From: Burkholderiales bacterium | GTDB lineage: Bacteria > Pseudomonadota > Gammaproteobacteria > Burkholderiales > Burkholderiaceae_F | Direction: 5' to 3' | Length of the DNA stretch: 64,000 nt | Assembly: GCA_020248865.1 (NCBI GenBank) | Contig: JADCGS010000024.1 | Span: 1 to 64,000 of the forward strand | Shown here: piece by piece, positions 3,767-44,038 of the stretch | Position numbering within the stretch: the first letter of the stretch is position 1 | How the letters are laid out: each line of letters begins with the position of its first letter | Program-made: the position numbers and the translations under genes | Notes under the pieces: model-generated | What the model was told of the DNA's origin: nothing | Seen by the model: only the letters and a program-made list of their open reading frames with translations | Database searches by the model: none

Positions 3767-3984
3767 CTCTGGCGATGGTGGTTTATGTGGTGTTCGGCGC
3801 GATGTTCGGGCTGGCGACCTATGCCAACCGGCATCTGTTCAGCGAGGGCAGCACGCGCAACACGGGCACCGTCAAGCGCGACCCGCTCGACGGGCGGCTT
3901 ACGTGGATGACGCTGAACTCGGTGTTGTGGCCGATGTTCGTGTTCACCGGCACCTACAGCATCCTGCGCCGCCGCCGCCGCTAG
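3763..3984 (+). CDS. Small two-helix membrane protein
   Basis: 73 aa with a strong ribosome binding site (GAAGGAGG, 6 nt before ATG) inside the end of the DUF3422 gene, and a 4-nt ATGA overlap. Hydrophobic helices lie near residues 3-20 and 47-65, joined by a polar loop (ANRHLFSEGSTRNTGTVKRD). It ends in a poly-Arg tail, which by the positive-inside rule would sit in the cytoplasm. I do not recognise a family. The tight coupling suggests it works with the DUF3422 protein. Confidence 0.7.
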   Translation: MTLAMVVYVVFGAMFGLATYANRHLFSEGSTRNTGTVKRDPLDGRLTWMTLNSVLWPMFVFTGTYSILRRRRR

Positions 3985-4163
3985 CCGGCAGACGCCGCGG
4001 CGGACCGTCCCGGTGCCGGGGCGATCCGTCCGCGCCGCAGGCCGCTGGCGCGCGAGGGCCGCCCTCGCGCGTGCTTCGGGCGTGCTTCGGGCGTGCCTCG
4101 TGTATCCATCGCGAGCACCTCGATCCTCCCGCGCCCGACCCACCTGCGCAGCGGCGTGGCGGG

Positions 4164-5027: not shown

Positions 5028-5157
5028 TCACGGTAGCAGCAGGAGCACGGTCGGCGGCAGTCCCGGTGGCTCGAAGACTCCGACGCCGGCTTTCCGTCGC
5101 GCGGCGAGCGGATCGGCAGCCGCGGCCGGCCGGGCCGCCCGCAGCGCCGGCGCCGCC

Positions 5158-5760: not shown

Positions 5761-5785
5761 GGCCTCGCCCCCTGCTCGCACCCGC

Positions 5786-7531
5786 TCAGCGCGCCGCGTG
5801 GCGAATCACCTCGGCGGCGAGCATCTCGGCCTGCGGCCGCTGCGCGGCGCCGCCGCCGCACAGGGTGGCCGCGGCGATGGCCGATTGGTCCTGCCGCTTC
5901 GGATCGGCCACCTTGCCCACCACCTCGACGAAGCCGTCGTCGAGCTGCTCCGTGCCGCCGCCGCAGGCCAGAATCGGCGTCTGCACGGTCTCCTCGTCCA
6001 CCCGCAGCGACTTGCGGCCCACCGGCACGCTGGAGAACTCGACGATCTGCTCGCGCGGCAGCTGGCGCTTCTGGTCGAAGCCGAAGTCCACGTTCTTCAG
6101 CGACTGCGGGCCGGTGTAGCCGACGCGGCCCAGATCGTAGAACTTGCGCTCGAAGCCGCTCTTGGCGAAGGCCTTCAGGCAGCCCAGCATGTAGCGGCGC
6201 TTGACGCGGTCGCGGATCCACGGGTACGAGAAGAACGCGCGCTTGAAGTAGAAGCGCCGGTAGTTGTGCATCACGCGGTCGAGCAGTTCGGCCCGTTCCA
6301 TCGCTTCGGGCTTGATGATCGGGGTGACGAAGTTGTACTTCTCGAAGTCGAAGATCTGCACCTTGTCGCCGAGCTCGCGGAACAGGTCCGAAAACGGCCA
6401 CGGCGTGTACATCGCCCAGTTGGCCATGTCGGGCTTCCAGTCCTCGGCCATGCGGTAGGTTTCCTCGAGCGTCTCGCGGGTCTCGTTTTCCAGGCCGACG
6501 ATGAACTGCGCCTCGGCCACGATGCCGGCCTGGCGCAGCAGCGTGATGGCCTTCTTGTTCTGCGCGATCGTCGTTTCCTTGTTGAAGCGGTCGAGCTTGA
6601 GCTGGGCTGCCGCCTCGGTGCCGAGCGACACGTGGATCAGGCCGGCCTTGCGGTACATCGGCAGCAGCGCCTCGTCGCGCAGGACGTCGGTGACGCGGGT
6701 GTTGATGCCCCACAGGACGGGCAGCTTGCGCGCGATCAGCTCCTCGCAGAAGGCGACGAACTTCTTGCGGTGGATGGTGGGCTCCTCGTCGGCGAGGATG
6801 AAGAAGCCCACGTCATGGTCGCGCACCAGCGACTCGATCTCGTCGACCACCTTCCTGGGGTCGCGCACGCGATAGTCGCGCCAGAACTTCCACTGCGAGC
6901 AGAAGCTGCAGGTGAACGGGCAGCCGCGCGCAAAGTTCGGTATCGCCACCCGCTTGCCCATCGGGATGTAGATGTACTTCGGCCAGTCGAGCACCGACCA
7001 GTCGGGCGTGATCGAGTCGAGGTCCTTGACCGGCGCTTCGGCCGGCGTGGCCACGATCTGGCCCGCCTGCGCGTAGGCAATACCCTTGATCTGGCTGCGC
7101 TGCGCCGCGAAGTGGCCGCGCTCGATGGCGCGCACCAGGTTGACGAGGATCGCTTCGCCTTCGCCGCGCGCCACCACGTCGATCCAGGGCGCCTCGGCCA
7201 GCACCTGCCGGTACATGAAGGTGCCGTGGATGCCGCCCAGCACCGTCACCGCCTGCGGATGCTCTTCCTTGGCAATCTGCAGCAAGCGCTCGGCCTTGTA
7301 GATGGCCGGCGTGATGGCGGTGCAGCCGATGAGATCGGGCTTTTCTTCCCGCAGGAGCGCGCGCACCTGCTCCTCGTCCAGCCGCTCGGTCATGGCGTCG
7401 ATGAAGCGCAGGCTGGTGTAGCCCGCCGCCTTCAGCGCACCGGCCAGATAGGCGACCCAGGCGGGCGGCCAGTTGCCGGCAATCTCGGCGCCACCCGAGT
7501 GATAGTTGGGGTGGATAAGAACGATGCGCAT
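5786..7531 (-). CDS. bchE: BchE, anaerobic Mg-protoporphyrin IX monomethyl ester cyclase
   Basis: 581 aa, normal for BchE. An N-terminal cobalamin-binding (B12) domain (residues 1 to about 150, beginning [19 protein letters not shown]) is followed by a radical-SAM core with the [4Fe-4S] motif CPFTCSFC (Cys204, Cys208, Cys211). It forms the isocyclic E ring of bacteriochlorophyll using water-derived oxygen, so it works without O2. The start at 7531 is favoured over 7543 by GGAG about 7 nt upstream and by the family N-terminus. It heads the operon bchE-bchJ-bchO. A perfect TGT-N12-ACA site lies 69 bp upstream (7600-7617). No oxygen-dependent cyclase gene (acsF) is visible in this window. Confidence 0.95.
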
Positions 7532-7599
7532 TCGGGGCTCCATGACGGGAGAGAATCACGGAGCAGCCTAGGCGCGCACAGCACGCTGCCGTTGCCGTA

Positions 7600-7617
7600 T
7601 GTCAACTCTCGCCGACA
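7600..7617. promoter_or_regulatory. PpsR/CrtJ operator upstream of bchE
   Basis: TGTCAACTCTCGCCGACA is an exact TGT-N12-ACA match to the consensus for the aerobic repressor PpsR/CrtJ. On the bchE strand the same bases include TTGACA (7600-7605), a good -35 hexamer, so binding would occlude the promoter. It is located between bchE and the co-directional transporter gene. Confidence 0.65.
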
Positions 7618-7686
7618 CACAGCGCGTCCAACGGGAACGACAGCGGCCCCGCTGCGACCGCCGGACCGCGCCGTCCGTGGCGCCAC

Positions 7687-8661
7687 TCACCCAGCCAGCC
7701 AGTTCGCGTAGCTGTAGTACAGCGGCAGCCCCGCCAGCAGGTTGAAAGGCAGCGTCACCCCCAGCGAAGAAGTCAGGTAGATGCCGGGGTTGGCCTGCGG
7801 CAGCGAGGCCCGGCACGCGGCCGGCGCATCGATGAAGCTGGCGCTGGCGCAGATGGCACCGAAGACGAAGGCGCCGCCGACCGACAGCCCGGCCCAGTGG
7901 CCGAGCGTCACGCCAATGACGCCGTTGACGATGGGCATCAGCACGCCGAAGCCCACCATGAACACGCCGACCTCCTTGAAGGCGCGCGCCTGGCGCGCCG
8001 CGGTAATCCCCATTTCCAGCAGGAACAGCATCAGCATGCCGCGGAACAGCCCTTCGTAGAACGGCTGGATCTGCTGCCACTGCCGGTCGGTGGCGAGGTA
8101 GCCGATCACCATGCCACCGCACAAGAGCAGGATGCCGCGGCCGCGGATCACGCTCATGAACAGCTGCTTGAAATCGATGCCGCCGCCGCTGGCCCGGCCC
8201 ATGGCGATGCGCGCGATCACGAGCGAATAGATGACGCCGAACTCCATCAGCGCCACCATCGCCGCCATGTAGCCCTCGCTCGGCGTGTTCATCGCCTTGG
8301 CAAAGGTCACCGAGGCGAAGAACGTGGCGGTCGACACCGAGCCGTAGTGAGCGGCGATCGCCGCGGCGTTGCTGATGTCGAAGCGGCCGAGCCGGCGCGT
8401 GATGACGTAGACGGCGGTCGGGATGGCAAACACCATGAACAGCGTGATCGCGATCACCGGCAGCACGTCGCCCAGCTCCGCCTTGGCGAGCTCGCGCCCG
8501 CCGGTGATGCCCAACGAGAACAGCAGGTAGATCGCCAGCAGCTTGATCACCGCCTCGGGCAGCTCCAGCTCGCTCTTGACGAAGCCGGCGATGGCGCCGA
8601 GAAGGAAGGCCAGCACGATCGGCTGCAGCAGGTTGGTCGACAGCAGTTCCAGGCCAGGCAC
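7687..8661 (-). CDS. SbtA-family sodium-dependent bicarbonate transporter
   Basis: 324 aa, about ten hydrophobic segments. It matches the SbtA/DUF897 family, including the conserved AAHYGSVSTATF block in the middle and the inverted-repeat-like SASFIDAPAACRASLPQANP region near the C-terminus. Characterised cyanobacterial members take up HCO3- with Na+. No SbtB-like PII partner is encoded next to it. It lies 155 bp upstream of bchE on the same strand and divergent from a LysR regulator, the usual arrangement for a regulator of its neighbour. In a phototroph this would supply inorganic carbon for fixation or anaplerosis; that role is an inference. Confidence 0.85.
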   Translation of the reverse strand: MPGLELLSTNLLQPIVLAFLLGAIAGFVKSELELPEAVIKLLAIYLLFSLGITGGRELAKAELGDVLPVIAITLFMVFAIPTAVYVITRRLGRFDISNAAAIAAHYGSVSTATFFASVTFAKAMNTPSEGYMAAMVALMEFGVIYSLVIARIAMGRASGGGIDFKQLFMSVIRGRGILLLCGGMVIGYLATDRQWQQIQPFYEGLFRGMLMLFLLEMGITAARQARAFKEVGVFMVGFGVLMPIVNGVIGVTLGHWAGLSVGGAFVFGAICASASFIDAPAACRASLPQANPGIYLTSSLGVTLPFNLLAGLPLYYSYANWLAG

Positions 8662-8802
8662 TTTGTTCTCCTTGTTCGCGTAGTCGGGCGCTTGCGGACC
8701 GGATTCTCGATAGAGACGGCTACCAACACAAATTCAACGATTCAAGGCATTCGTTCTGTTTCGATAAACTTTCGAGGTTTGCCCTGCTGCCCGCCCCCCC
8801 CG

Positions 8803-9699
8803 ATGGCCCAGCTCAACTACCACCACCTGCGCTACTTCTGGGCCATTGCCCACCAGCGCAGCCTCACCAAGGCCGCACAGCAACTGCATGTGTCGCAGTC
8901 GGCGCTGTCGATCCAGCTCAAGCAGCTGGAGGAGCGGCTCGGCCATCAGCTGTTCGAGCGGCGCAACCGGCAACTGGTGCTGACCGAGGCTGGGCGCATC
9001 GCGCTGGCCTACGCGGACTCGATCTTCCAGGCCGGCGAGGAACTGATCGGTACGCTCAAGCACCAGGCGCCGCGGCGCCGGCAGGTGCTGCGCGTGGGAT
9101 CGGTGGCCACCCTGTCGCGCAATTTCCAGTTGCAGTTGCTGCGGCCGCTGATCGGCCGCGCGGACGTAGAGCTGGTGCTGCACTCGGCCACGCAGCGCGA
9201 ACTGCTGGCACAACTGGCGGCGCACACACTCGACCTGGTGCTGTCCAACCAGCCGGCGCCGCGCGACGCGGCCACCGGCTGGCACAGCCACCTGCTGGCG
9301 CAGCAGAGCGCCAGCCTGGTGGCGCAGGCCGCGCTCGGCCGCGGCCGGCTGCGCTTCCCGGAGGCGCTGCGCGAGCACCCGGTCGTGCTGCCCGGCACCG
9401 CCAGCAGCCTGCGCGCCGCCTTCGACCTGGCGATGGACCAGGCCGGCATCCGCCCGCAGGTGCTGGCCGAGGTTGACGACATGGCGATGCTGCGCCTGAT
9501 GGCGCGCGAGTCCGCCGGCCTGACACTGCTGCCGCCGGTGGTGGTACGCGACGAGCTGAAGAGCGGCGTGCTGGTGGAACGTTGCCGGATCGCGCAGATG
9601 CAGGAGAGCTTTTTCGCCATCTCGCCCGCCCGCCGTTTTCCCAACCCGCTGGTGCGCGAGCTGCTGGCCAAGCCGCTCACGATGCGGGCGCGGCGCTGA
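8803..9699 (+). CDS. LysR-family regulator, probably of the bicarbonate transporter
   Basis: 298 aa starting MAQLNYHHLRYFWAIAHQ. The N-terminal winged helix-turn-helix (about residues 5-64, with SLTKAAQQLHVSQSALSIQLKQLE) is a classic LysR DNA-binding domain, followed by a periplasmic-binding-like effector domain. The YHHLRYFW start resembles NhaR-type LysR proteins. The frame is open far upstream through the sbtA gene, but the ATG at 8803 is where similarity begins. The 141-bp divergent gap contains ATTCAA direct repeats and a TCGATAAACTTTCGA element where a LysR tetramer could sit. Effector unknown. Confidence 0.9.
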   Translation: MAQLNYHHLRYFWAIAHQRSLTKAAQQLHVSQSALSIQLKQLEERLGHQLFERRNRQLVLTEAGRIALAYADSIFQAGEELIGTLKHQAPRRRQVLRVGSVATLSRNFQLQLLRPLIGRADVELVLHSATQRELLAQLAAHTLDLVLSNQPAPRDAATGWHSHLLAQQSASLVAQAALGRGRLRFPEALREHPVVLPGTASSLRAAFDLAMDQAGIRPQVLAEVDDMAMLRLMARESAGLTLLPPVVVRDELKSGVLVERCRIAQMQESFFAISPARRFPNPLVRELLAKPLTMRARR

Positions 9700-9831
9700 G
9701 CGCCAGGTCGGCGCGCAGGCGCAGCGGGCACGGCCGACGCCGAGCAGCGCGGCAACCGCGGCCGCCGTGCCCGGCCCGCGCAGACCGGCCCGCCCGGCCG
9801 CCGACCACTGCGCCGCGGTTTAGCGGCGGGT

Positions 9832-11610
9832 TCAGCCGCCCGTGGTGGCCGCCAGCGCGCGACTGAGCTGCCGCGCATCCGCGTGCGGCAGCGGCAGGTA
9901 CCGCGCGTCCATCGCCGCCGCCAGGTCGCGCGCACTGGCCTGCGGCCGCGGCGAGGTGTCCACCAGCACCGTGCTGGCACCGCTCATGCGCAGGCGGCGG
10001 GCCGCCGCGCTGGCATCGGCCTGCGCCTGCTCCCGCCCGGGCTGTCCGTTGCGATCGATGTTGGCGCGGCCGTCGGTCATCACCACCACCACCGTCGTCT
10101 CGCCGCGCCGTTGCAGGCCATCGACCAGCGTGTGGGCGGTCTCGATGCCGGCGGCCAGCGGCGTGCCGCCGCCGCCCGGCAACTGGGCCAGCGAGCGCTT
10201 GGCGCGCGTCAGCGAGCGGGTGGGCGGCAGCAGCAGTTGCGCGCCCTGGCCGCGAAACGCGACCAGCGCCACGCGGTCGCGCCGCACGTAGCACTGCGCC
10301 AGCAGCAGCTCGACCGCGCCCTTGGCCTCCGCCAGCCGGTGCAGCGCACTCGACCCCGAGGCGTCCACCACGAACACCGTCGTGGTCGGGCTCGGCTGCT
10401 TGCGCCGGGCGATGCGAAAGTCGTCGCGCCGCACGTCCACGCGCGGCCCGTGCGCCGCCGCGGCGCCGCGCTCGCGCCGGCGCAGGGCCTGCCACGGCGC
10501 CGCCGCTCGCAGCGTCTCGATCACGTCCAGCCGCATGCCGGCCTGCAGCGGCCCGCGCCTTGTGCCGGCCGGGCGGCCCCGCTGGTGTGCGGCCTTCATC
10601 TGTCCGGCCCGGCCCTGCGCGCCGTGGCGGCCGGCCTTGCGCGCCGCGCGCAGCCGCAGCAGCAGATCGGCCGGGATTGCGGCCAGCGCCGCCGCGACCA
10701 CCCGCTCGTCGGGCAGGCGCTCGCCCTGCGACTGCGGCTGCTGGCTGCCGTCCTGCGGCGCGTCCTGGGGCGGCGCCTGCTCGGGCGGCGGCGGCTCCTG
10801 CGCAGCAGCTTGCTCGTCGGCCGGCAGTTGCGTGGCGCGGGCGGCCAGCACCAGGCGCGCAGACAGCTCGATGTCTTCGTCGTCCACAACGTCGCGGCCG
10901 GCGAGCGCGGCGCTGGCGCGCGCCACGGCCAGCGCCATCAGCGGCACACGCAGGGAGCCGATGCCGAAGGCGACAGCGCCGGCACACAGCGCCTCGATGA
11001 GGCGCTCGGGCACGGCCACCTGCGGCAGGCGCGCCCGCGCAGCGGCGATGTCCACCGTCGGCGAGTCGGTGACGGCGCCGCGCGGCAAGGCCGTCAGATC
11101 CAGGTGCAGCGCCAGCCGGTCGGCCAGCGCCTGCGGCGCACGCTCTTCGGCGCCGTCGCCTTCGTCGAGCGCGAGCACGCCGCAGCGCGTCGGCAGCCGC
11201 AGCGCCAGTCCGTCGCGCTCGAGCGCCACTTCGTGCGCGTCGAGCACGGCGGCGATGCGGGCAGCGGTGGCGCTGGAAACACGCTCGGCCATCGGGATCA
11301 CGAGCAGGCCGCCGTCGACCTCGGCCAGCACGCCGCGCGTGAACTGCGGCGCGCCGGCGCGCAGGGTGGCGGCCAGGTCGAGACCGCCCAGCAGGCGGTC
11401 GTCGGCGATCGTCACGGGCATCTTCCGCCACGGCGTGCCGGCGGGCAGCAGCCGCCGCACGAGGTCGATCCAGGCATCGCGCACCGGACCGGCCGCAGCG
11501 CGCAACAGCACCCCGCCCACGCCGGCCGGATCGACCGCCACCACCTGCGCGGCGGCCACCGCGTCCGCCCACAGCGCCTGGGCGCGGGCGTCAGGGGTCG
11601 GCGCCGTCAT
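9832..11610 (-). CDS. bchD: Magnesium chelatase subunit D
   Basis: 592 aa. The N-terminal part is a degenerate AAA+ domain, then a Pro/Gln-rich and acidic linker (about residues 262-297), then a C-terminal von Willebrand A integrin-I domain with the MIDAS residues DASGS, GGGTP and TDGR. With BchI it forms the ATPase motor that drives BchH to insert Mg2+ into protoporphyrin IX, the first committed step to bacteriochlorophyll. It starts 7 nt after the bchI stop, so the two are co-transcribed. No bchH is visible. It converges on the LysR gene; a short hairpin (CCGC-GCGG, near 9811-9827) lies between them. Confidence 0.95.
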   Translation of the reverse strand: MTAPTPDARAQALWADAVAAAQVVAVDPAGVGGVLLRAAAGPVRDAWIDLVRRLLPAGTPWRKMPVTIADDRLLGGLDLAATLRAGAPQFTRGVLAEVDGGLLVIPMAERVSSATAARIAAVLDAHEVALERDGLALRLPTRCGVLALDEGDGAEERAPQALADRLALHLDLTALPRGAVTDSPTVDIAAARARLPQVAVPERLIEALCAGAVAFGIGSLRVPLMALAVARASAALAGRDVVDDEDIELSARLVLAARATQLPADEQAAAQEPPPPEQAPPQDAPQDGSQQPQSQGERLPDERVVAAALAAIPADLLLRLRAARKAGRHGAQGRAGQMKAAHQRGRPAGTRRGPLQAGMRLDVIETLRAAAPWQALRRRERGAAAAHGPRVDVRRDDFRIARRKQPSPTTTVFVVDASGSSALHRLAEAKGAVELLLAQCYVRRDRVALVAFRGQGAQLLLPPTRSLTRAKRSLAQLPGGGGTPLAAGIETAHTLVDGLQRRGETTVVVVMTDGRANIDRNGQPGREQAQADASAAARRLRMSGASTVLVDTSPRPQASARDLAAAMDARYLPLPHADARQLSRALAATTGG

Positions 11611-11617
11611 GCGCGAA

Positions 11618-12655
11618 CTAGCCCGGAAAGACTTCGGCCACCGCGCGCTCCACCCGCGCGGTCGAGCCGGTCTCGTCGAGCGGGTCGCGCCGCAGCCGAT
11701 GGCGCAACGCGATCGGCGCCACCCGCCGCAGATGCTCGTCGCCGACCTTCCTGGCGCCTTCCAGCGCGGCCAGCGCGCGGGCCGCGCGCATCAGCGTGAG
11801 CTCGCCGCGCAGGCCATCGGTGCCGAGCTTCATGCACAGGGTGGCGGCACGCTCGAGCGCCGCATCGGGCACCTCGACCTCGGGCAGGCGCTTGCGGCCA
11901 GCGACGATGCGGCGGCTCACGCGGGCGTCCTCGCCCTGCCAGGCCGCGATGAACGCCGCCGGGTTGCGCTCGAAGGCGTCGCGCCGCTTGACCACCTCGA
12001 TGCGCTGCGCCATGTCGGTCGGCGTCTTGACTTCCACGCTGAGGCCGAAGCGGTCTAGCAGTTGCGGGCGCAGCTCGCCCTCCTCCGGATTGCCGCTGCC
12101 CACGAGCACGAACCGCGCCGGATGGCGGACGCTGAGGCCCTCGCGCTCCACCACGTTCTCGCCGCTGGCGGCCACGTCGAGCAGCACGTCGACCAGGTGG
12201 TCCTCCAGCAGGTTGACCTCGTCGATGTACAGAAAGCCGCGGTTGGCGCGCGCCAGCAGCCCCGGCTCGAAGGCCTTGACCCCCTGTGCCAGCGCGCGCT
12301 CCAGATCGAGCGCGCCAACCACGCGGTCTTCGGTGGCGCCCAGCGGCAGGTCCACCACCGACAGCGGATGGGTGACGCTCTTCAGCTTGATGCCGCCCGC
12401 CGCCTTGCGACCCTCCGGCGCACAGACGCCGCACACGCCGGCGGGCTGGTCGGGAGCGCAGGCGTAAGGGCAGCCCACCACCGCCTTGACCGGCGGCAGC
12501 AGTGCGGCCAGCGCGCGCACCGCGGTCGACTTGCCGGTTCCGCGGTCGCCGAACACGAGCACCCCGCCGATGCCGGGCTCCACGGCAGCCACCAGCAGGG
12601 CGAGCTTCATCTCGTCCTGACCGACGATGGCGGAGAAGGGAAAGGCAGCGGCCAT
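11618..12655 (-). CDS. bchI: Magnesium chelatase ATPase subunit I
   Basis: 345 aa, normal for BchI. AAA+ ATPase with Walker [10 protein letters not shown] at residues 36-44 and Walker [10 protein letters not shown]. The Cys-rich [17 protein letters not shown] insert typical of the family is present. The start at 12655 ([17 protein letters not shown]) gives the family N-terminus; the frame continues upstream but is Arg-rich and non-conserved. It is the first gene of bchI-bchD. The 116-nt gap to the divergent VOC gene contains a GGCAAG/CTTGCC palindrome (12699-12714), but I found no TGT-N12-ACA site, unlike in front of bchE. Confidence 0.95.
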
Positions 12656-35587: not shown

Positions 35588-35635
35588 TGGTGGGTGGTAC
35601 AGGGTTCGAACCTGTGACCCCTGCCGTGTGAAGGC
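35588..35635. repeat. attL: 48-bp copy of the tRNA-Val 3' end
   Basis: Identical over 48 bp to 43964-44011 and includes the CCA end, T-arm and anticodon region of tRNA-Val. The 5' half of the tRNA is missing here, so this is the displaced, non-functional copy. Confidence 0.95.
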
Positions 35636-35730
35636 GGAAGAGCGGATTTCTGCGGATGCGGGCGGATGCTGTTTTCACTCTGAGAGGCTTCGTTACGGTT
35701 CGCCAAAATCCGCCCGGTTCCGCTATCGCT

Positions 35731-35760
35731 TTGCCGTATCATTGCCGTATGGCATACGGG
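35731..35760. repeat. Left arm-type repeat (TTGCCGTA motif)
   Basis: Two TTGCCGTAT units followed by GGCATACGGG, with the palindrome CCGTATGGCATACGG. A similar 30-bp block with the same spacing occurs at the right end (43911-43940). It lies 7 bp upstream of the integrase ATG. Likely integrase arm-binding or operator sites; this is inferred from position and repetition. Confidence 0.5.
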
Positions 35761-35767
35761 ATGGTCA

Positions 35768-36898
35768 ATGGATAGCAAGACAAAGCGGGCCAAACTCACG
35801 CCGCGGCGTGAGCCCTACTGGACTCGGCTGCGGGCCGGCGGGCACGTAGGCTACCGGAAGATGGCCGAGGGCGACGGCACCTGGATCGCCAAGCACCGCG
35901 GCGCCGACGGCATGCGCCAGTACAAGTCGCTGGGGGGCATCGCTGCGGATGGCAAGCGCGACCCGTTCGATATCGCCAGCAAGCTCGCGCTCGCCTGGTT
36001 AGAGCAGCTGGACGCGGGCATCGCAGCCGCGGGCACCGTGGCCGATGCCTGCCGCGCGTATGTCGCGGCGCTCAAGATCGACCGACCCAAGGCGTCGACC
36101 GATGCCGAGGGCCGCTTCAAGCGCCTGCTCTACAGCGCAGCGCTGGGCCGCGTGCCGCTCGAGCGGCTGCAAGCCCGCGACGTGCGCGCCTGGCTAGATG
36201 CGCAGGTGCCGGGCGATGATGAAGATGATCCCGACGCACAGCGCCGCGCGAAAGACAGCGCGAACCGGAACCTGACGGCGCTCAAGGCGGCGCTGAATCT
36301 CGCCTATCGGGACAAGCTGATCGCCAGCGACCATGCCTGGCGCACCGTCAAGCCCTACAGCGGCGTCGCAGGACGTCGGACGATGGTTCTGGCACCAGCG
36401 CAGCGAAAGGCGCTCCTGGCGGCTGCTGACAAGCCCCTGCGGCACTTTCTGCAGGCGGCCATGCTGACCGGCGCGCGGCCGGGCGAGCTGGCCGCGGCGA
36501 CCGTTGCCGACTTCGACCCGCGGGCCGGCACGCTGCGCCTGGTCGGCAAGACGGGAGCACGCACGGTGCCGGTGTCGACGCAGATGGCGAAGCTGGCCAA
36601 GGCATGCTGCAAGGACCGCATCGGCAAGGCGCCGCTGTTCGACCGCGGCGACGGGAAGGCCTGGGAACGCTTCTACTGGCGCGACAAGGTACAGAACGCG
36701 GCCAAGGCGGCGCATCTGCCGGGCGCGAGCATGTACGCGCTGCGGCATACCGCCATCACCGAGATGGTGCTTGGCGGGCTCGACCTGCTGATGGTGGCGC
36801 GTCTCACCGGCACGTCGGTCGCGATGATCGACAAGCACTACGGCCACCTGGCACAGAAGGCCGCCGCAGCGGCGCTTAACCGCGTAAGGCTCGCGTGA
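35768..36898 (+). CDS. int: Tyrosine recombinase integrase
   Basis: 376 aa. An N-terminal arm-binding region, a SAM-like core-binding domain (about 88-190) and a catalytic domain with Arg237 (TGARPGE), Lys261, Arg326 in YALRHT and the nucleophile Tyr358 in DKHYGHL. Two usual His positions are replaced: Tyr for His in the YALRH box and Thr in LTGTS, variants that occur in many phage integrases, so it may well be active. Sited 133 bp inside attL, it should catalyse insertion into and excision from tRNA-Val. Its stop overlaps the next gene's start (ATGATGA). Confidence 0.95.
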   Translation: MDSKTKRAKLTPRREPYWTRLRAGGHVGYRKMAEGDGTWIAKHRGADGMRQYKSLGGIAADGKRDPFDIASKLALAWLEQLDAGIAAAGTVADACRAYVAALKIDRPKASTDAEGRFKRLLYSAALGRVPLERLQARDVRAWLDAQVPGDDEDDPDAQRRAKDSANRNLTALKAALNLAYRDKLIASDHAWRTVKPYSGVAGRRTMVLAPAQRKALLAAADKPLRHFLQAAMLTGARPGELAAATVADFDPRAGTLRLVGKTGARTVPVSTQMAKLAKACCKDRIGKAPLFDRGDGKAWERFYWRDKVQNAAKAAHLPGASMYALRHTAITEMVLGGLDLLMVARLTGTSVAMIDKHYGHLAQKAAAAALNRVRLA

Positions 36899-37434
36899 TG
36901 AGCCCGCAACAGCGCACCGCCTTAGAGCATGCCTTTCAAGACCTGCGGCGCTGGTACGAGCCGCGGCCCAGGCGCGCCGTGTACTACGAGCTGCGGAGAG
37001 CGAGCACTCAACTGCAAGCAGCCCTGCGCGAGTTTGACAACGAGACGTCGCTGTCAACCCAGCTCCTGCTCGCACTGCTACAAGCCGTCAAACTGCGACC
37101 GCAGGCTGACATTTTTCAGGATCTGCAGCGCACCGCTGAGTTGCTGCGGCAGATCGAGGCTGCGCTCGACGTGCGGGCCCCAAAGGGGCCGGAACCCGAT
37201 CACGAGGTCAGGGCGTGGGTTCTCTTAGCCGCCGACGCATGGGTGACCTTCACGGGCCAGCTACCGACAACCGGCACGGGCTGGATTGAAAGCTTCGGCC
37301 GCCACGTTGCGGATAGCGAGTTCTTGACGGCGCTACGTCTGTTCGCAAAAGAACATGACGTCCCTATCGTGACGCGCGACGCCTTGCGCGACCTGCTGCC
37401 GGCCTGGGAGGAACGCCACCGCGGGGGGCAATAG
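36895..37434 (+). CDS. Unknown element protein
   Basis: 179 aa (or 178 from the second ATG at 36898), overlapping the integrase stop. Mostly helical, charged, without signal peptide or membrane segment; the C-terminal part ends DALRDLLPAWEERHRGGQ. I do not recognise a family. Coupling to the integrase suggests a role in maintenance, excision or control of the element, but nothing in the sequence shows this. Confidence 0.6.
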   Translation: MMSPQQRTALEHAFQDLRRWYEPRPRRAVYYELRRASTQLQAALREFDNETSLSTQLLLALLQAVKLRPQADIFQDLQRTAELLRQIEAALDVRAPKGPEPDHEVRAWVLLAADAWVTFTGQLPTTGTGWIESFGRHVADSEFLTALRLFAKEHDVPIVTRDALRDLLPAWEERHRGGQ

Positions 37435-37520
37435 GCGCGGCATTTGCCCCCGTGCATTGTCCGCTTGCCGCCTCTACTGTCCGTCCGTCGCCGCAGTGTT
37501 GCGGCATCACGGAGGCGGAC

Positions 37521-37712
37521 ATGCACAAGCTGGCTTACTCACTGCCCGAGGCGCAAGAGCTTTGCGGCCTGGGCCGAACGATCCTCTACGAAAGCATCCA
37601 ACGCGGCGAGCTGCCAATCATCAAGGTCGGCAAGCGCACGCTGGTGTCGGATGAGGCGCTGCGCAAGTTCCTGAAAGACCGCGAGGCGGTCGCACCGCGG
37701 GCTGGCAAATGA
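37521..37712 (+). CDS. AlpA/excisionase-like helix-turn-helix protein
   Basis: 63 aa from the ATG at 37521, with GGAGG 5 nt upstream. LPEAQELCGLGRTILYESIQRGELPIIKVGKRTLVSDEALRKFL is a MerR-like winged-helix of the AlpA/Xis (DNA-binding excisionase) family: recognition helix, then a KVGKRT wing. Such proteins direct excision or activate the integrase in P4-type elements. The frame is open further upstream (to 37452), but that part lacks family features. Confidence 0.8.
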   Translation: MHKLAYSLPEAQELCGLGRTILYESIQRGELPIIKVGKRTLVSDEALRKFLKDREAVAPRAGK

Positions 37713-37792
37713 CAGTCACCCGCGGCCTAGCCAACCTTCGACACGTGCTGGCGATCGGCCGCGAGCGTGCCGCGCAAGTGGTGGCCGCATGA
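37709..37792 (+). CDS. 27-aa coupled mini-ORF
   Basis: ATG overlaps the excisionase-like stop (ATGA), and its own TGA overlaps the next ATG (ATGA at 37789). Translation MTVTRGLANLRHVLAIGRER... is short and basic. It may be a real micro-protein or only a translational bridge between its neighbours. Confidence 0.35.
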   Translation: MTVTRGLANLRHVLAIGRERAAQVVAA

Positions 37793-38073
37793 CCCGCGCC
37801 GCCGAAGAACGCTTCGGATCGGTGGCGAAGATCTCTTCGCGCAGCAGCGCTAGCGGCTGCCAGAGCCGCGCCGCCGAAGAACGCACCGCCGACCTACGCG
37901 CCGATGCCGAGGCCGTGCGCGCTCACCTGGCCGAAGCCGCGAAGGCTATCTGCGCTGCATTCCTCTACTGCGAGCAATCGCGCCCCGAGGTGTTTCGCGA
38001 GCGCTTGCGCTGCGCCCAGGTTGCGATCGCGCGGGCCGACTGCGCCCTGCTCGACCTGGGCCGCCCGGACTGA
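37789..38073 (+). CDS. Small unknown element protein
   Basis: 94 aa, helical, with the middle rich in Ala/Glu (ADLRADAEAVRAHLAEAAKAICAAFLYCEQ). No known domain. Translationally coupled to the preceding mini-ORF. A hairpin with poly-A/T flanks (38082-38115) follows its stop, so it probably ends a transcription unit. Confidence 0.5.
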   Translation: MTRAAEERFGSVAKISSRSSASGCQSRAAEERTADLRADAEAVRAHLAEAAKAICAAFLYCEQSRPEVFRERLRCAQVAIARADCALLDLGRPD

Positions 38074-38081
38074 CCAAGAAA

Positions 38082-38115
38082 AAGCCGGCGCAGCGCACTA
38101 GACGCAGGCCGGCTT
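38082..38115. terminator. AAGCCGGC...GCCGGCTT hairpin
   Basis: A perfect 8-bp stem with an 18-nt loop, preceded by AAAAA. On the minus strand this gives a stem followed by Ts, and the plus strand ends in TT only. It is typical of intergenic hairpins in betaproteobacterial phages; direction uncertain. Confidence 0.45.
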
Positions 38116-38128
38116 AAAGGAATCGCAC

Positions 38129-38446
38129 ATGAATGATAACCGCCAACCTTGTGCCGCCTGCTATGGGCCGCTCGGGTCAGACGTACCGCACTACGCGCGA
38201 CTCTGCCGGCCCTGCTTCACTCAGGCCAAGCGGCGCGAGACTGCCGAGTTGCAGCGGCGCATCGAAGCACTGGAAGCCGAGGTCGAACGGCTGCGTGGTC
38301 GAGCGGCGCCCGTAATCGACGCGACGATGTTGCGGCGGCTGATCCAGTTGTGCCACCCCGACAAGCACAGCGGCTGTGAAGCCGCGGCCACGGCTACCAG
38401 ATGGTTGATCGAGCAGCGCGACGCGGCGCGGAGGGTGGCCGCGTGA
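38129..38446 (+). CDS. Zinc-finger protein with J-domain-like C-terminus
   Basis: 105 aa with AGGAA 8 nt before the ATG. N-terminal CAAC...CRPC spacing (CxxC-x17-CxxC) is a treble-clef or zinc-ribbon type metal site. A short coiled coil (ETAELQRRIEALEAEVERL) follows, then LIQLCHPDKHSG...ATRWLIEQRDAAR, which carries the HPD tripeptide of J domains within a helical frame. This would be an abbreviated DnaJ-like cochaperone; a chance HPD is possible. Its stop overlaps the GTG of the primase gene (GTGA), indicating coupling. Confidence 0.6.
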   Translation: MNDNRQPCAACYGPLGSDVPHYARLCRPCFTQAKRRETAELQRRIEALEAEVERLRGRAAPVIDATMLRRLIQLCHPDKHSGCEAAATATRWLIEQRDAARRVAA

Positions 38447-39927
38447 TCGACCTCAACCACTACGCGATACCGCCCGAACTGCGCGCGCGCTTTGTTGCCG
38501 CGATCCGCGAGGGCCGCGACCAAGCGGTTGACGACTTCGCCCGCGCGATCTTTATCGAACTGCAGAAGGCCGGCGCCGCGAATGGGTCCGATGTGGCCGA
38601 CGTGCTGCTGGCGGGGTCGGAGGCCGCGATGGTTGCGGCAGAAGTCACCGTCGCCGACTTCGTGGCCTACCTGCCTGCACACAACTACATCTTCACGCCG
38701 ACGCGCGAGCCGTGGCCGGCGTCCAGTGTCGATTCGCGGCTGCCGTGGCTGAAGGACGACGGCGGAAAGAATGTCAAGCCATCGACGTGGCTGGATCAAA
38801 ACAGGCCGGTCGAGCAGATGGCATGGGTGCCGGGTAGGCCGATGCTGATCAAGGACAACCTGCTCTCCGCCGGTGGGTGGATTCATCGACCCGGCTGCAC
38901 GACGTTCAACCTGTACCGCCCGCCGACTATCGCAGCCGGCGATCGAAACGATGTCGCACCGTGGGTCAACCACATCGACATGATCTACGGCGATAGTGCG
39001 GAACACATCATCACCTGGCTGGCGCACCGGGTGCAGAAGCCGGCGGAGAAGATCAACCACGCGCTCGTGCTTGGCGGCGCTCAAGGGATCGGTAAGGACA
39101 CGATCCTAGAACCGGTGAAGCACGCGGTCGGGCCTTGGAACTGGTTCGAGGTGTCGCCGATGCAGGTGCTCGGCCGGTTCAATGGCTTCGTGAAGTCGGT
39201 GATCCTGCGGGTGTCGGAGGCGCGCGACCTGGGTGACGTTGATCGCTTCGCCTTCTATGACCACATGAAGGTGTACACCGCGGCACCGCCGGACGTGCTC
39301 AGGTGCGACGAAAAGAATCTCCGCGAGCACGATGTCCTGAACGTGTGCGGCGTGGTGATCACCAGCAACCACAAGTCCGACGGCATCTACCTGCCGCCCG
39401 ACGATCGGCGCCACTACGTCGCCTGGTCAAGCCTGACCAAAGACGACTTCGCGCCGGACTACTGGCGCACCCTGTACGGCTGGTACGCCAACGGCGGGAC
39501 CGCCAATGTCGCTGCGTACCTCATGGCGCTGGACATCAGCCGGTTCGACCCGAAGGCACCGCCGCCCAAGACGGACGCCTTTTACGAGATCGTGAACGCC
39601 AACCGATCGCCAGAGGCCGCCGAACTCGCCGATGTCATCGATGCCTGCGGCTGGCCGCCGGCCGTCACGCTGGACACGATCATCGGCATCGCCGCCACGG
39701 TGCAGCGCCACGACTTGGCCGACTTCCTAAAGGACCGCAAGAACCGCCGGGCGATCCCGCACCGCCTGGAGGACGCCGGCTACGTACCGGTCAGGAACCC
39801 GGACGACAAGCGGGACGGGCAGTGGCGGATCGATGGCAAGCGGCAGACAGCCTACGCGCGGCAGAACCTCTTAACCCGCGACCGGATCGCCGCCGTCCAA
39901 GCGCTCCAAGATCGGTCATGTCGGTGA
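38443..39927 (+). CDS. Phage-type primase/SF3 helicase (DUF5906-like)
   Basis: 494 aa from a GTG overlapping the previous stop. The central ATPase has Walker A GGAQGIGKDT and the surrounding NHALVLGG...ILEPVKHAVGP...VVITSNHKSDGIYLPPDDRRHYV pattern typical of DUF5906/D5-like helicase domains of phage and satellite replication proteins. The C-terminus (AGYVPVRNPDDKRDGQWRIDGKRQ) is a small winged-helix-like module. A separate N-terminal primase polymerase domain is not evident, so it may act as helicase only. The final codons and stop lie in the left arm of a 35-bp inverted repeat. It is expected to drive replication of the excised element. Confidence 0.82.
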   Translation: MIDLNHYAIPPELRARFVAAIREGRDQAVDDFARAIFIELQKAGAANGSDVADVLLAGSEAAMVAAEVTVADFVAYLPAHNYIFTPTREPWPASSVDSRLPWLKDDGGKNVKPSTWLDQNRPVEQMAWVPGRPMLIKDNLLSAGGWIHRPGCTTFNLYRPPTIAAGDRNDVAPWVNHIDMIYGDSAEHIITWLAHRVQKPAEKINHALVLGGAQGIGKDTILEPVKHAVGPWNWFEVSPMQVLGRFNGFVKSVILRVSEARDLGDVDRFAFYDHMKVYTAAPPDVLRCDEKNLREHDVLNVCGVVITSNHKSDGIYLPPDDRRHYVAWSSLTKDDFAPDYWRTLYGWYANGGTANVAAYLMALDISRFDPKAPPPKTDAFYEIVNANRSPEAAELADVIDACGWPPAVTLDTIIGIAATVQRHDLADFLKDRKNRRAIPHRLEDAGYVPVRNPDDKRDGQWRIDGKRQTAYARQNLLTRDRIAAVQALQDRSCR

Positions 39928-40053
39928 TGTCGGTGATTTTCTATCTTGATCCACAGCTTTTCACTCGCGCGTGCGGGCTTCTTGATTGGTGGAGGGGGGT
40001 CGATAGGGCTATGGATGGAGATAGAAAATCACCGACATCACCGACACGACCGA
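39912..40053. repeat. 35-bp inverted repeat at the primase 3' end
   Basis: Arms 39912-39946 and 40019-40053 are inverted copies with one mismatch (built on TCGGTGATG units), separated by 72 bp containing a TCTTGATCCACAG segment. The left arm includes the primase stop codon. It could be a replication origin, a regulatory hairpin or the scar of an inverted duplication. Confidence 0.9.
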
Positions 40054-40225
40054 CACCGAGCGGGTGGGCTACGTGCCGGTCCACAACCGCAACGCGAGTG
40101 ACGGCCTGTGGAAGATCGGCGGCCGCCGGCAGGCGGTCTACGGCCGCGCGATGGTGGTCAGCCGTGAAGCTGACAATAAGAGGGGCAGCTTCTTCGCCCT
40201 CGGAAAAGCCCGTGCAACCCATTGA
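40025..40225 (+). pseudogene. Diverged duplicate of the primase C-terminal module
   Basis: In one frame without a start codon, the translation runs TERVGYVPVHNRNASDGLWKIGGRRQAVYGR and then diverges. It aligns with the primase C-terminus AGYVPVRNPDDKRDGQWRIDGKRQ (shared GYVPV-N, DG-W-I-G-RQ). A TAG at 40022-40024 precedes it, so it is a fragment created by duplication or by recombination with a related element. It begins inside the right arm of the inverted repeat. Confidence 0.65.
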
Positions 40226-40313
40226 TTTGATGGGTCCCTCTTGGGGCATGGCCGAGCGGGTAATTCGCACTCCGATCTGTCCCCGCTCACGAAGTTTTCA
40301 TAGGGGGGGTAAG

Positions 40314-40690
40314 TTGACAGCCTCTCTAGAGGACAAGTTCAGGCAAGTCGACGTTGCAGAGTTTCTCGGTGTGTCTGAAAAGACGGTCAGCGAGTGGGCG
40401 TCTGAAGGATTATTCGACGGCTGCGCGACGTTTGCGGATGCGCTGCGGGCGGTTTATCGCCGGCTGCGGCCACCGGGCAACGCACAGCTCACTCGGTCGC
40501 CGATGCTCGCGACGATATGCCGCAAGCCCTGCGCGGCAGGCGTGGCCGCAGCCGCTTCTATCGCCACGTCGAGGCACTGCGCGCGGCCGGCGCCGTGCGC
40601 GTCGAAGCCGTCCGAAAAGCCAATCGGCACGCCGTCGAGTTCAGGCGTCAATTCGCCTATGCCACCCGCGCCACGCGCTAGACGTTCACG
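40314..40690 (+). pseudogene. HTH protein remnant, possibly small-terminase-like, frame-disrupted
   Basis: From a TTG at 40314, the frame encodes KFRQVDVAEFLGVSEKTVSEWASEGLFDGCATFADALRAVYRRLR, a helix-turn-helix like those of Nu1-type small terminases. Beyond about 40480 the frame becomes low-complexity. A different frame (ATG 40517 to TAG 40681) reads RGRSRFYRHVEALRAAGAVRVEA, reminiscent of phage replication proteins with an FYRHxxxLRAAG box. I read this as one frameshifted or two fused remnants. A single intact 158-aa ORF to 40787 is the less likely alternative. Confidence 0.4.
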
Positions 40691-40809
40691 GGTCCTTCCT
40701 GGGGCACCCCTGCTACGGCTGCGAAACGACCGCGGATTTGCGCTAGTCACAGCATTTTTGGGTAGGTTAATTTCATCAATCGGTTAAGTGGTCTCGATAG
40801 GCGATACCT

Positions 40810-41283
40810 ATGAAACAGAAGGACCTTGCGGAAGCCTTGGGAATCAGCGCGGCGATGGTTAGCCGGCTGAAACACCAAGGCATGCCCACGCACTCGGTCG
40901 AGGCCGCCCGCCGCTGGCGTGAGCGCCACCTCGATCCGGCGCGCGTCGTCGGCCAGCGCGTCGACTACCCGCGGCCCGCTGCACCGCCGCCGGAGCCTGA
41001 CGTTGCCGCGCGCGTGGACCTGGTGCGCGCGCTGATGCAGCTGGCCGCGGCAGACTTCGACCAACACGCCGACAATCTGCGCCGAGCGATGCGGCTGGTG
41101 CCACCCGATGCGCGGGCGCAGATCACCGTCGACATGGACGTGTTCACGCGGCTGCTGCCGGCCAACCTGACCGAGGTCATCGAGCCCGACCATGAGGTCT
41201 GCGCGGCGCAGTCGGATGCCGAAGCCGAAATCGCCGGGCTGTTCCTGTACTCGCTCGCGTGCGGCGAGCTGGAGCTGCAATGA
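40810..41283 (+). CDS. HTH DNA-binding protein (small-terminase/Nu1-like N-terminus)
   Basis: 157 aa. MKQKDLAEALGISAAMVSRLKHQGMPTHSVEAARRWRERHLDP is an HTH followed by a short basic arm, the layout of phage Nu1-type DNA-packaging or control proteins. The remainder is helical and Ala-rich (DLVRALMQLAAADFDQHADNLRRAM). If it is a small terminase subunit, no large subunit is present to partner it; it could equally be a transcription regulator. It overlaps the next ORF by ATGA. Confidence 0.6.
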   Translation: MKQKDLAEALGISAAMVSRLKHQGMPTHSVEAARRWRERHLDPARVVGQRVDYPRPAAPPPEPDVAARVDLVRALMQLAAADFDQHADNLRRAMRLVPPDARAQITVDMDVFTRLLPANLTEVIEPDHEVCAAQSDAEAEIAGLFLYSLACGELELQ

Positions 41284-41393
41284 CGCCGGCCGAGACGGCC
41301 GAAGATATTGAGATCGTCGAGGCGACGGTGGCGGAGTTGCGCAACATCGCCTACCGCGCGGTGCTCGCTGAGGTTGATGGCACCGATGCTTGA
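41280..41393 (+). CDS. 37-aa coupled mini-ORF
   Basis: Starts in the ATGA overlap with the HTH gene. Translation MTPAETAEDIEIVEATVAEL... is acidic and helical. Its 3' end overlaps the next mini-ORF (41386). Typical of micro-genes between phage genes, but no family is recognised. Confidence 0.45.
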   Translation: MTPAETAEDIEIVEATVAELRNIAYRAVLAEVDGTDA

Positions 41394-41490
41394 GATCGCA
41401 CAGCGCGCCCTGGCGTCGGCAGGGCCCGGTCCAGTGAGACAGGCAGGCCCGCCGGAACGGTTCGACGATGAGTCCGATTCAGCCGTCTGA
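41386..41490 (+). CDS. 34-aa overlapping mini-ORF
   Basis: Begins MLEIAQRALASAGPGPVRQA, overlaps the preceding mini-ORF by 8 nt and the next gene by 23 nt. It may be a real peptide or only a reinitiation path to the gene at 41468. Confidence 0.35.
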   Translation: MLEIAQRALASAGPGPVRQAGPPERFDDESDSAV

Positions 41491-41929
41491 ACTGCGCGCG
41501 CTCGCTGCCTCGCTTGCTCGCCTCGAGCTGCAGCTCGAGGAGGCGGCGGAAGCCGAGCGGACTGCTGCCGCAGAACGACGCGAGATCCTCGAGCTGCTGC
41601 GCGGTAGCGGGCGGATGGTCAAGGGCGCGTCGATCGACGCGCCAGTTTCCCGCCTAGCGCGTGCCATCGCTGCCGGCTACGGCAAGCAGTTCCAGTGCGG
41701 GGAGCTATTGACCTGGTGCCGCAGTGCGCCTCAGACGCCGGAGCGACGTGCGGTACGCGAGGCGGTCGCCCAGCTGCTCGGCTGCGCGCCCGCCACTCTT
41801 GTTGGGGACGAGCACGACGCGCGCCGGCTCGGGATTCAGTTGTCCAAGCACAAGCGCGCCTTCGTTCGCTTCACTGAGCGCGGAGGCTCCGCGATCTGGG
41901 TGCTTGGCGAGCGGGACTCGGGGGAGTGA
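41468..41929 (+). CDS. Unknown coiled-coil protein upstream of the capsid gene
   Basis: 153 aa. An N-terminal coiled coil (LAASLARLELQLEEAAEAERTAAAERREILELL) and a C-terminal globular part ending KRAFVRFTERGGSAIWVLGERD, which resembles small HTH or replication-type folds seen in phage accessory proteins. Position just upstream of the capsid gene (58-nt gap) suggests a scaffold-like or regulatory role, but no motif proves it. Confidence 0.55.
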   Translation: MSPIQPSELRALAASLARLELQLEEAAEAERTAAAERREILELLRGSGRMVKGASIDAPVSRLARAIAAGYGKQFQCGELLTWCRSAPQTPERRAVREAVAQLLGCAPATLVGDEHDARRLGIQLSKHKRAFVRFTERGGSAIWVLGERDSGE

Positions 41930-41987
41930 GTCCCCCTGCCCCATGCGCCGGCCACGTAGTCTGCGCTCCGTTACTCACGGAGGGGCC

Positions 41988-43115
41988 ATGAACAACGACT
42001 CGACCGTTTTTCCTCATCTCCCGCAACGCCAAGCGCTTGAGTTCGTGCTGCCTGGCGAGCGAAGCATTCCGCTCTGCTCCCAGGTTCCGCTGTCCGAGCG
42101 AGAGATCTCCGGGTATTCAATCCGCAATGCGATCAAGGCAGCGCTTACGGGCAACTGGTCAAAAGCCGGGTTCGAGCGGTCGGTAACGATGTCCACGCTG
42201 CAAGGTCTCGGGGACGCCGACATGGCGTCCAATCGCCTGATCGTGCCGGCAGCTGTGCTGGCGCGCGACCTGGTGGCCGGTACGGGCTCCGCAGGCGGCT
42301 TCCTGGTCAACACCGAAATGCGCGGCGTTCTCGACGCGCTGCGGCCGCGGCTAGTCGCCGCCCGCCTCGGTGCGCAAGTCATCACCGGGCTGCGTAACAA
42401 CGTCACCTATGCGCGGAATGCCGGCTCACTGACACTCACATGGCAGGCGACCGAAGGCACGCCGGCAGTGGAGACCGAGAACTTCAACACCGGGCAGATC
42501 GCGCTCACACCCAAGACCGTGACCGGCCTTGTCGAGGCCTCGCGTGTCTTCCAGTTGCTCACCTTGGACGTGGGCGAGGCAATGATCCTGCGCGAGTTGC
42601 GTCTGGGCGTTGCTGCCGGCGTGGATGCGGCGGCGTTCGGTGGCACCGGCGCTTCGGGGCAGCCGACTGGTCTTCTCAATACGGCAGGTATCGGCACATT
42701 CAATGGTGCGTCGATCACCTACGCCAACTTGCTCGAGGCGCAGACCGACGTGCTGTCCGCCAACGCGCTGACGGAGGGCGGCCGGGTCGCGTTCACTTGC
42801 CGCCCCGCCGTCGCGTCGGTGCTGGCACAGCGGCAAGGCTTCAACGCCTCGTCACCGCCGTGCTGGGTTGGCCCGCTTGCTGAGGGCCAGTTGATTGGCT
42901 GCCCGGCGATCACCAGCATATTCCCTCCGGCCGCGACGCTGGTAGCCGGCGACTTCGCGCAAATGATGCTTGCGGAGTGGGGCGCGGGTCTCGACGTTCG
43001 CGTCGATCCATACACGGGCTTTCTGAGTGGGCGCGTTGGCCTGGCCGCATCGCTGTCGGTCGACGTGGGCGTGGCGTGGCCGCAGGCCTTCTCTGTCGCA
43101 ACCAGCGTGAGCTAA
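41988..43115 (+). CDS. HK97-type major capsid protein
   Basis: 375 aa with a strong ribosome site (GGAGG, 4 nt before the ATG). The N-terminal roughly 100 residues look like a delta/scaffold region, followed by RDLVAGTGSAGGFLVNTEMRGVLDALRP at the start of the mature-type fold. Further on are ATEGTPAVETENFNTGQIALTPKTVTGLVEASR (E-loop and P-domain transition) and FGGTGASGQPTGLLNT, hallmarks of HK97-like capsids. Neither a maturation protease nor a portal gene is adjacent, which is unusual. It would self-assemble a small shell or subvert a helper phage's packaging. Confidence 0.85.
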   Translation: MNNDSTVFPHLPQRQALEFVLPGERSIPLCSQVPLSEREISGYSIRNAIKAALTGNWSKAGFERSVTMSTLQGLGDADMASNRLIVPAAVLARDLVAGTGSAGGFLVNTEMRGVLDALRPRLVAARLGAQVITGLRNNVTYARNAGSLTLTWQATEGTPAVETENFNTGQIALTPKTVTGLVEASRVFQLLTLDVGEAMILRELRLGVAAGVDAAAFGGTGASGQPTGLLNTAGIGTFNGASITYANLLEAQTDVLSANALTEGGRVAFTCRPAVASVLAQRQGFNASSPPCWVGPLAEGQLIGCPAITSIFPPAATLVAGDFAQMMLAEWGAGLDVRVDPYTGFLSGRVGLAASLSVDVGVAWPQAFSVATSVS

Positions 43116-43117
43116 CC

Positions 43118-43351
43118 ATGACCACGATTCGAGTTCGAGTACTGCGCCGCTTCATCATCGCCGGTGGCCAGGCCGCAGAGGTCGGCGATCAAGTCGATCT
43201 TCCGGCCGCCGTGGCCGGGGAGGCCCTGCGCACCTGTAAGGCCGTCCTGGTTGACGCATCAGACGCCAAGCGACTCCATGCGGAAGTAGAGAAGGACGGC
43301 GCCGACACCGTGCGTCGATTGGGACCGGCGCCGCGGGGCATCCGCGGATGA
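43118..43351 (+). CDS. Small unknown protein after the capsid gene
   Basis: 77 aa beginning MTTIRVRVLRRFIIAGGQAAEVGDQVDLPAAVAGEALRTCKAVLVD, 2 nt after the capsid stop. The short beta-rich opening followed by an Asp/Lys-rich tail is common in small proteins next to phage head genes; I cannot name it. Co-translation with the capsid is likely. Confidence 0.6.
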   Translation: MTTIRVRVLRRFIIAGGQAAEVGDQVDLPAAVAGEALRTCKAVLVDASDAKRLHAEVEKDGADTVRRLGPAPRGIRG

Positions 43352-43963
43352 CTGCACACAAGCGCGCGGCGTCGAGCTGCAACAGCGGCGCGCGCTTGGG
43401 CCCTTGGGCCGTCACTTTTATGTCGCAGCACCGCGCGCGCCGCGCAAGCGCTATCTCCTTTAACGGCCGTGGCAGGCCATCGGGATTCGGCGCCGCATTG
43501 TCCGCAGGGCCCCGCCACGCGCGAGCGGGTCGAGCGGACTCCCCTAGACCGGGTGCTTCAAGAAGAAGTCAGTGCGCTCGAATAGCGCAGATCGGCGCGT
43601 GCTCCGCCAGCTCGCCTTTCTGCACGCACAAGTCGACCGAGAACTAGTGCGCCTGGCGGCGCCCGACGATGTTCGCCAGGCCATCGACGAGTCCCTCTCA
43701 GGCTGCCCGGCTGGCGCCGCAAGATCATCAACCGGGAATGCTGGCGGCTGACCGGTGGCCATGCGGGCCGGTTTGAGGCGCTGCGCGCGGTGGTAACTGC
43801 TGCCGTTGCGAACGGCGCCACCATCAAGGCAGCGCTGCAGCCGCGTCGGCCACCAGCATGACGTTGGCTAGCGGCTGCGTCGGCCCGCCTGCACTAGAAA
43901 GCCCCACATGTTGCCGTACTGATGCCGTAAGGCAACGGGGACATTCGCTAAGTCATTGATTTT
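43352..43963. other. Right end of the element, no confident gene (612 bp)
   Basis: Contains an ORF from an ATGA overlap (43348-43647) that lacks family features, a GTG-started 59-aa frame (43572-43751, with RRVLRQLAFLHAQVDRELVRLAAP), and a further open stretch in another frame (GWRRKIINRECWRLTGGHAGRF). The frame shifts between these suggest decayed genes. The right arm-type repeat lies at 43911-43940. Confidence 0.5.
43911..43940. repeat. Right arm-type repeat
   Basis: TTGCCGTA...TGCCGTAAGGCAACGGGG matches the left block (35731-35760) at 1-8, 13-19 and 21-24, 24 bp inside attR. Probable integrase or Xis arm sites, inferred from symmetry. Confidence 0.5.
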
Positions 43964-44011
43964 TGGTGGGTGGTACAGGGTTCGAACCTGTGACCCCTGC
44001 CGTGTGAAGGC
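43964..44011. repeat. attR: 48-bp repeat restoring tRNA-Val
   Basis: Identical to 35588-35635. This copy supplies the 3' part of the functional tRNA-Val. Confidence 0.95.
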
Positions 44012-44038
44012 AGTGCTCTACCGCTGAGCTAACCACCC
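43964..44038 (-). tRNA. tRNA-Val (CAC)
   Basis: 75 nt read leftward: GGGTGGTTAGCTCAGCGG start, anticodon stem CTGCC/GGCAG with loop TTCACAC (anticodon CAC), T-arm ACAGGTTCGAACCCTGT, acceptor ACCACCC and encoded CCA. It is the integration target; the element restored its 3' end so the gene stays intact. Before insertion it would have lain just upstream of gltX. Confidence 0.95.

Follow-up and report, generated by a model that had tools for sequence, protein, structure and literature searches.

Satellites that encode a capsid protein have been described from several lineages. The late gene most often found in the PICIs of Gram-negative bacteria is that of the major capsid protein, present in 21 of 29 reference elements, and this gene is not needed for transfer (PMC10111431). 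EcCICFT073 carries capsid and decoration genes and yet is packaged at phage size; when its capsid gene c1499 is deleted, interference is kept and the packaged DNA is phage-sized (PMC6092414). PmCI172, which has a capsid homologue, forms small heads (PMC6092414), and Ccm of SaPIbov5, an HK97-fold capsid homologue, fills the pentamers and yields small isometric heads (PMC8569155). Mycobacterial candidate PICIs, phiRv1 and phiRv2 among them, were identified by the combination of an integrase and a capsid gene (PMC10654092). That satellites can carry a capsid gene but no head module is thus already known, as these descriptions show (PMC10111431, PMC6092414, PMC8569155, PMC10654092). The first-pass annotation of the locus analysed here had assumed that known satellites either use other remodelling proteins or carry a whole head module; this premise is wrong, and the lone-capsid satellite that it proposed as a different economy has already been described in other systems (PMC10111431, PMC8569155).

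The locus occupies positions 35588-44011 of a 64,000-nucleotide window (contig JADCGS010000024.1 of a Burkholderiales bacterium). That it is a phage satellite carrying a capsid gene on its own is well supported, and the same plan is found elsewhere. Like the Gram-negative PICIs (PMC6092414, PMC10111431), it combines an integrase, AlpA and a replication gene followed by a putative iteron origin with rightward transcription, and it further resembles them in its lone capsid gene, the accompanying TerS-like gene (found in some PICIs), insertion at a tRNA or gene, and small size. The integrase at one end, the att repeats, the AlpA-type regulator and the co-directional genes are all PICI features. 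It differs from those PICIs in its DUF5906 replication protein, in a capsid that stems from a protease-capsid fusion of VP882 type and in a host outside the Enterobacteriaceae and Pasteurellaceae covered by that study, and its induction by a helper is presumed. With SaPIbov5 (PMC8569155) it shares a satellite-coded HK97-fold capsid homologue as the only such head gene; SaPIbov5, however, is Gram-positive and cos-type, whereas this element has a TerS-like gene, and head-size redirection is proven for Ccm and only inferred here. The small integrated elements phiRv1, phiRv2 and the other mycobacterial candidates (PMC10654092) also pair an integrase with a major capsid gene, but they are actinobacterial, and the comparison here covers these two genes. 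A satellite-coded capsid and small terminase are likewise found in cfPICIs and in Mulch/Flayer (PMC10690885), which in addition carry a portal and a large terminase, and in cfPICIs also a protease and connectors. None of these was found here; of the complete head and packaging module of the cfPICI type, the element has only a capsid and a TerS-like gene.

Boundaries and early genes

The 8.4-kb element is bounded by perfect 48-bp direct repeats (35588..35635 and 43964..44011), which cannot be extended by one base on either side. The left copy duplicates the 3' part of tRNA-Val; the right one belongs to an intact tRNA-Val(CAC) gene, the attachment gene, on the minus strand (43964..44038; ARAGORN and Rfam), of which it forms the 3' part. 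The repeats and their exact ends had been correctly placed in the first-pass annotation, and its gene list (tyrosine integrase, AlpA-like protein, DUF5906 protein and full-length HK97 capsid) is borne out by a family match for each. All main genes between the att copies read rightward, on the plus strand. In scans against Pfam, PHROGs, PADLOC and NCBIfam, the predicted proteins of the element matched no portal, large terminase, protease, tail or lysis gene, in agreement with the absences noted earlier, and no Sid/Psu capsid modifier family of P4-like satellites appeared among the matches. No plasmid copy of the element was found, and promoter and terminator scans gave signals at or below chance. 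The congeneric genomes G040 and G041 have a tRNA-Val site that is 97-99% identical and lacks the element. The joined query for the empty site failed to align over the junction, since in these congeners other genes (approximately 1.3 kb and 3.3 kb, respectively) separate the tRNA-Val site from gltX.

The tyrosine integrase (35768..36898, plus strand; the start may be 35861) matches PF00589 (E 1.7e-11) and phrog_1 (E 6e-41). It is no marker of satellites, since its relatives bear other cargo. The same integrase family adjoins tRNA-Val(CAC) in Lysobacter and Caballeronia (L023 9705-18397 and L028 9710-10791, respectively), and the Lysobacter island has an apparent type I restriction-modification system in place of phage genes. 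A 179-aa protein without family match (36895..37434, plus strand) is defined by its position between int and alpA, and a protein of similar size fills the same gap in the relatives L012 and L030. The AlpA-like, excisionase-type HTH protein (37452..37712, plus strand; the start may be 37521) matches PF12728 (HTH_17, E 2e-7) and the NCBIfam excisionase model TIGR01764 (E 1e-6). Its match to PADLOC mad1 was rejected as evidence of a defence gene, being a generic HTH match, and was the only hit of the element's proteins to PADLOC defence families. Two further plus-strand ORFs follow, one of 94 aa (37789..38073), recognised by reading frame and coding score, and one of 105 aa (38129..38446), with weak family matches, possibly encoding a small zinc-ribbon or coiled-coil protein.

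Replication protein and iteron array

A DUF5906 primase/helicase-type replication protein is encoded at 38443..39927 on the plus strand (the ORF opens at 38401; PF19263, E 2.6e-8), and its relatives are 57-61% identical. An inverted repeat made up of TCACCGACA units is found at its stop codon; the two arms, of 46 nt each, are 91% complementary, and the double iteron unit has four matches against 0.01 expected. The resulting structure (39912..40053), two inverted arrays of 9-bp iterons flanking a 50-bp core, is likely the replication origin, judging from its sequence. It resembles the arrangement in Gram-negative PICIs, where two iteron sets surround an AT-rich region right after the replication gene (PMC6092414), and both the iterons and the position after the replication gene are present here. 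Array cores were lower in GC than their own locus in all ten cases measured, although the core of this element is only slightly lower (0.60 versus 0.66 element-wide).

Comparable inverted repeats occur at or just past the primase stop in L029, L031, L032, L034, L035, L036, L037, L039 and L040, and L033, a near copy of L032, brings the relatives with an array to ten. In L038 the repeated unit is different, and no array was seen in L030. A scan of viral contigs with the iteron pattern returned, beyond known members, mostly unrelated phages or simple repeats. The replication module is shared with phages, since a large terminase follows the primase in L029, L034 and L040 and L039 is part of a 47-kb phage. 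The first-pass annotation had allowed for homologous elements with full head modules in the same slot; no full head module was seen between these boundaries, although a large terminase does follow the same replication module in the three loci just named.

Packaging-type and capsid genes, and their relatives

The protein encoded at 40810..41283 (plus strand), described earlier simply as an HTH protein, does have an HTH and further resembles Nu1-type small terminases (phrog_57, E 6e-8); the match covers residues 1-62 only, that is, the N-terminal HTH, and we treat the gene as a putative small terminase. It has phrog_57 counterparts in L011, before the capsid gene (E 1.8e-7), and in L035, before a protease gene (E 2e-21). 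The stretch between primase and TerS has been rearranged, because it contains a 38-residue fragment duplicating the primase C-terminus (40055..40168, plus strand; profile positions 446-483, E 1e-7) and an apparently broken TerS-like HTH fragment (40314..40481, plus strand; phrog_57, E 4e-5). This mid-element recombination leaves the main genes untouched. The fragments sit just past the iteron array, a position that would fit recombination between elements at the origin.

The gene at 41988..43115 (plus strand) encodes an HK97-fold major capsid protein homologue without a protease part (PF05065, E 1e-21; TIGR01554, E 1.6e-21; phrog_617, E 8e-44). Its ORF is complete, a clear GGAGG site precedes the start at 41988, and the PF05065 match spans profile positions 1-278 of 280. 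The protease-capsid profile phrog_617 is matched only at positions 273-624 of 626; the homologous phage proteins have 602-661 aa with an extra N-terminal part, and the satellite protein retains the conserved segment ahead of the capsid domain. These alignments identify the gene as the capsid part of a protease-capsid fusion known from phages. Viral contigs searched with the capsid gave no usable relatives, and a structure model built from five distant homologues had a mean pLDDT of 33. Upstream lies a gene for a predicted all-helical 153-aa protein without family match (41468..41929, plus strand), whose single-sequence model (mean pLDDT 72) has a long N-terminal helix (residues 6-46 at >85). 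Downstream, a 77-aa ORF (43118..43351, plus strand) corresponds by position and weak alignment to a small ORF located after the capsid gene of related phages. In L014 (1685-5549), a related capsid gene is split in two reading frames and lies next to, and upstream of, TerS-like and large terminase genes.

The first-pass annotation had suggested a search for the same gene order within tRNA-Val boundaries. A capsid gene without portal recurs in L012, L011, L036 and L030; L012 is at tRNA-Ser and L036 in an apparently split host gene. L012 (genome G429) encodes integrase, AlpA, helicase, HNH, TerS (phrog_83, E 6e-17), capsid and tape measure (phrog_2854, E 8e-57) proteins, and an exact 15-bp repeat (TGGCGGAGAGGCAGG), with copies at 2179 and 11785, falls on the 3' end of tRNA-Ser. 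The interval 2179-11799 thus delimits a 9.6-kb satellite-like element without portal or large terminase, in which a tape measure would be unusual for a satellite. In L011 (G272), a TerS-like gene, a gene for a 110-aa protein and a capsid gene occur with no portal between them, and the contig ends beyond TerS. L036 (675-11367) combines an integrase and a primase with a single capsid gene and a single baseplate hub gene (phrog_177, E 6e-43), and its contig holds both pieces of an apparent host cyclase gene interrupted by the element; capsid and hub genes are on the minus strand. The viral contig L030 (1-13414), with a terminal repeat of 127 bp, can be read as a circle of 13,287 bp (13.3 kb) that carries integrase, AlpA-like, SSB and primase genes and a protease-capsid gene spanning the contig ends; among the eight of its proteins that were scanned, neither a portal nor a large terminase was recognised. 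L032/L033, L035 and L038 are short contigs with protease and/or capsid genes after the primase.

Expected helper and possible roles of the capsid homologue

In the capsid tree, the satellite protein groups with that of the prophage L013 in the congener G041 (support 88/82), on a branch twice as long (1.23 versus 0.62). This prophage encodes Nu1 (PF07471), a gpA terminase (PF05876, PF20454), a lambda-type portal (PF05136) and a protease-capsid fusion. We expect the helper to be a phage of the lambda/VP882 type that resembles the G041 prophage in having a gpA-class large terminase, a portal of lambda type and a capsid fused to its protease. A gpA terminase, a lambda-type portal and another HK97 capsid gene are absent from the host assembly (95% complete).

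We hold with about even confidence that the element is a PICI-like satellite in which the terminase of such a helper is redirected by the satellite's own TerS and the capsid homologue is built into the helper shell, probably reducing its size. By analogy with PICI biology, integrase and AlpA would excise the element from tRNA-Val once a helper is active, and the DUF5906 protein would replicate it from the conserved array just downstream, the presumed origin. The Nu1-like TerS may then steer the helper's gpA-class terminase to satellite DNA; the capsid homologue, freed from the protease fusion, would enter the helper shell and may make the assembled head smaller, the effect that Ccm has in SaPIbov5. 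Portal, protease, large terminase, tail and lysis functions would come from the helper. The PICI-like reading is favoured by the exact att repeats at an intact tRNA, by an order of integrase, AlpA, replication gene and iteron array, read rightward, that is the plan given for Gram-negative PICIs (PMC6092414), by the TerS-like match, which has its parallels in L011 and L035 ahead of capsid or protease genes, and by the complete capsid ORF with its good ribosome site. The recurrence of the portal-less plan in L012, L011, L036 and L030, the grouping of the capsid with its counterpart in a complete prophage of a congener (88/82) and the precedents of Ccm and PmCI172 argue in the same direction. Of the roles that the first-pass annotation suggested for the capsid (building its own shell, redirecting helper packaging or acting as a decoy) and those considered here, the best experimental precedent favours head-size redirection. 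Against this reading stand the confinement of the TerS match to the HTH, the broken TerS-like and primase fragments, which indicate rearrangement, a host assembly without a helper of the expected type, and EcCICFT073, which without its capsid gene still transfers and interferes, packaged at phage size (PMC6092414).

By that same analogy such a capsid gene can be dispensable, and it is possible, though rather unlikely, that the element is a PICI-like satellite whose capsid is a captured helper late gene unneeded for transfer, concatemers entering full-size helper heads as in EcCICFT073. The phage-size packaging and retained interference of c1499 deletions (PMC6092414) are in keeping with this, and the long capsid branch could reflect relaxed constraint, whereas the complete ORF with its strong ribosome site and the retention of capsid genes in otherwise different relatives speak against it. 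That the satellite capsid alone forms a small shell around the helper portal, with the helper protease acting in trans, is decidedly unlikely: the protein is full-length with its conserved segment ahead of the capsid domain, and cfPICIs do make heads from their own capsid genes, but Ccm by itself cannot form shells (PMC8569155) and the fused protease is absent here. Loss of large terminase, portal, protease and tail from a prophage, leaving an immobile derivative, is improbable; TerS, capsid and small ORF do follow the order of VP882-type phages and broken fragments lie at 40055-40481, but the att repeats are perfect, the integrase, AlpA, primase and capsid frames are intact, the gene order is of PICI type and the same plan occurs at unrelated integration sites. 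Very improbable is an anti-phage decoy, in which the capsid poisons helper assembly within what is mainly a defence island. Suppression of helper multiplication by capsid homologues is indeed known, for example from Ccm (PMC8569155), yet no defence family was matched save by the generic HTH of AlpA, and a pure decoy needs no integration, replication or packaging-type genes.

A broader and speculative proposal, which we regard as unlikely, is that some of the elements with DUF5906 and iteron arrays form a separate satellite family, which combines individual virion parts from phages (TerS and capsid, protease-capsid alone, or capsid and baseplate hub), in which the freed capsid builds a whole small shell around the helper portal, so that the head would be swapped and the packaging motor would not. 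The conserved iteron array after DUF5906 primases may serve to find capsid-carrying satellites like the present one, which would escape a search based on complete head modules. The analysis adds a PICI-like satellite with clear boundaries and a capsid gene, for which phages of VP882/lambda type, with their protease-capsid fusion, are the likely helpers, and it raises the testable question of whether a satellite capsid is able to enter the shell without the fused protease.
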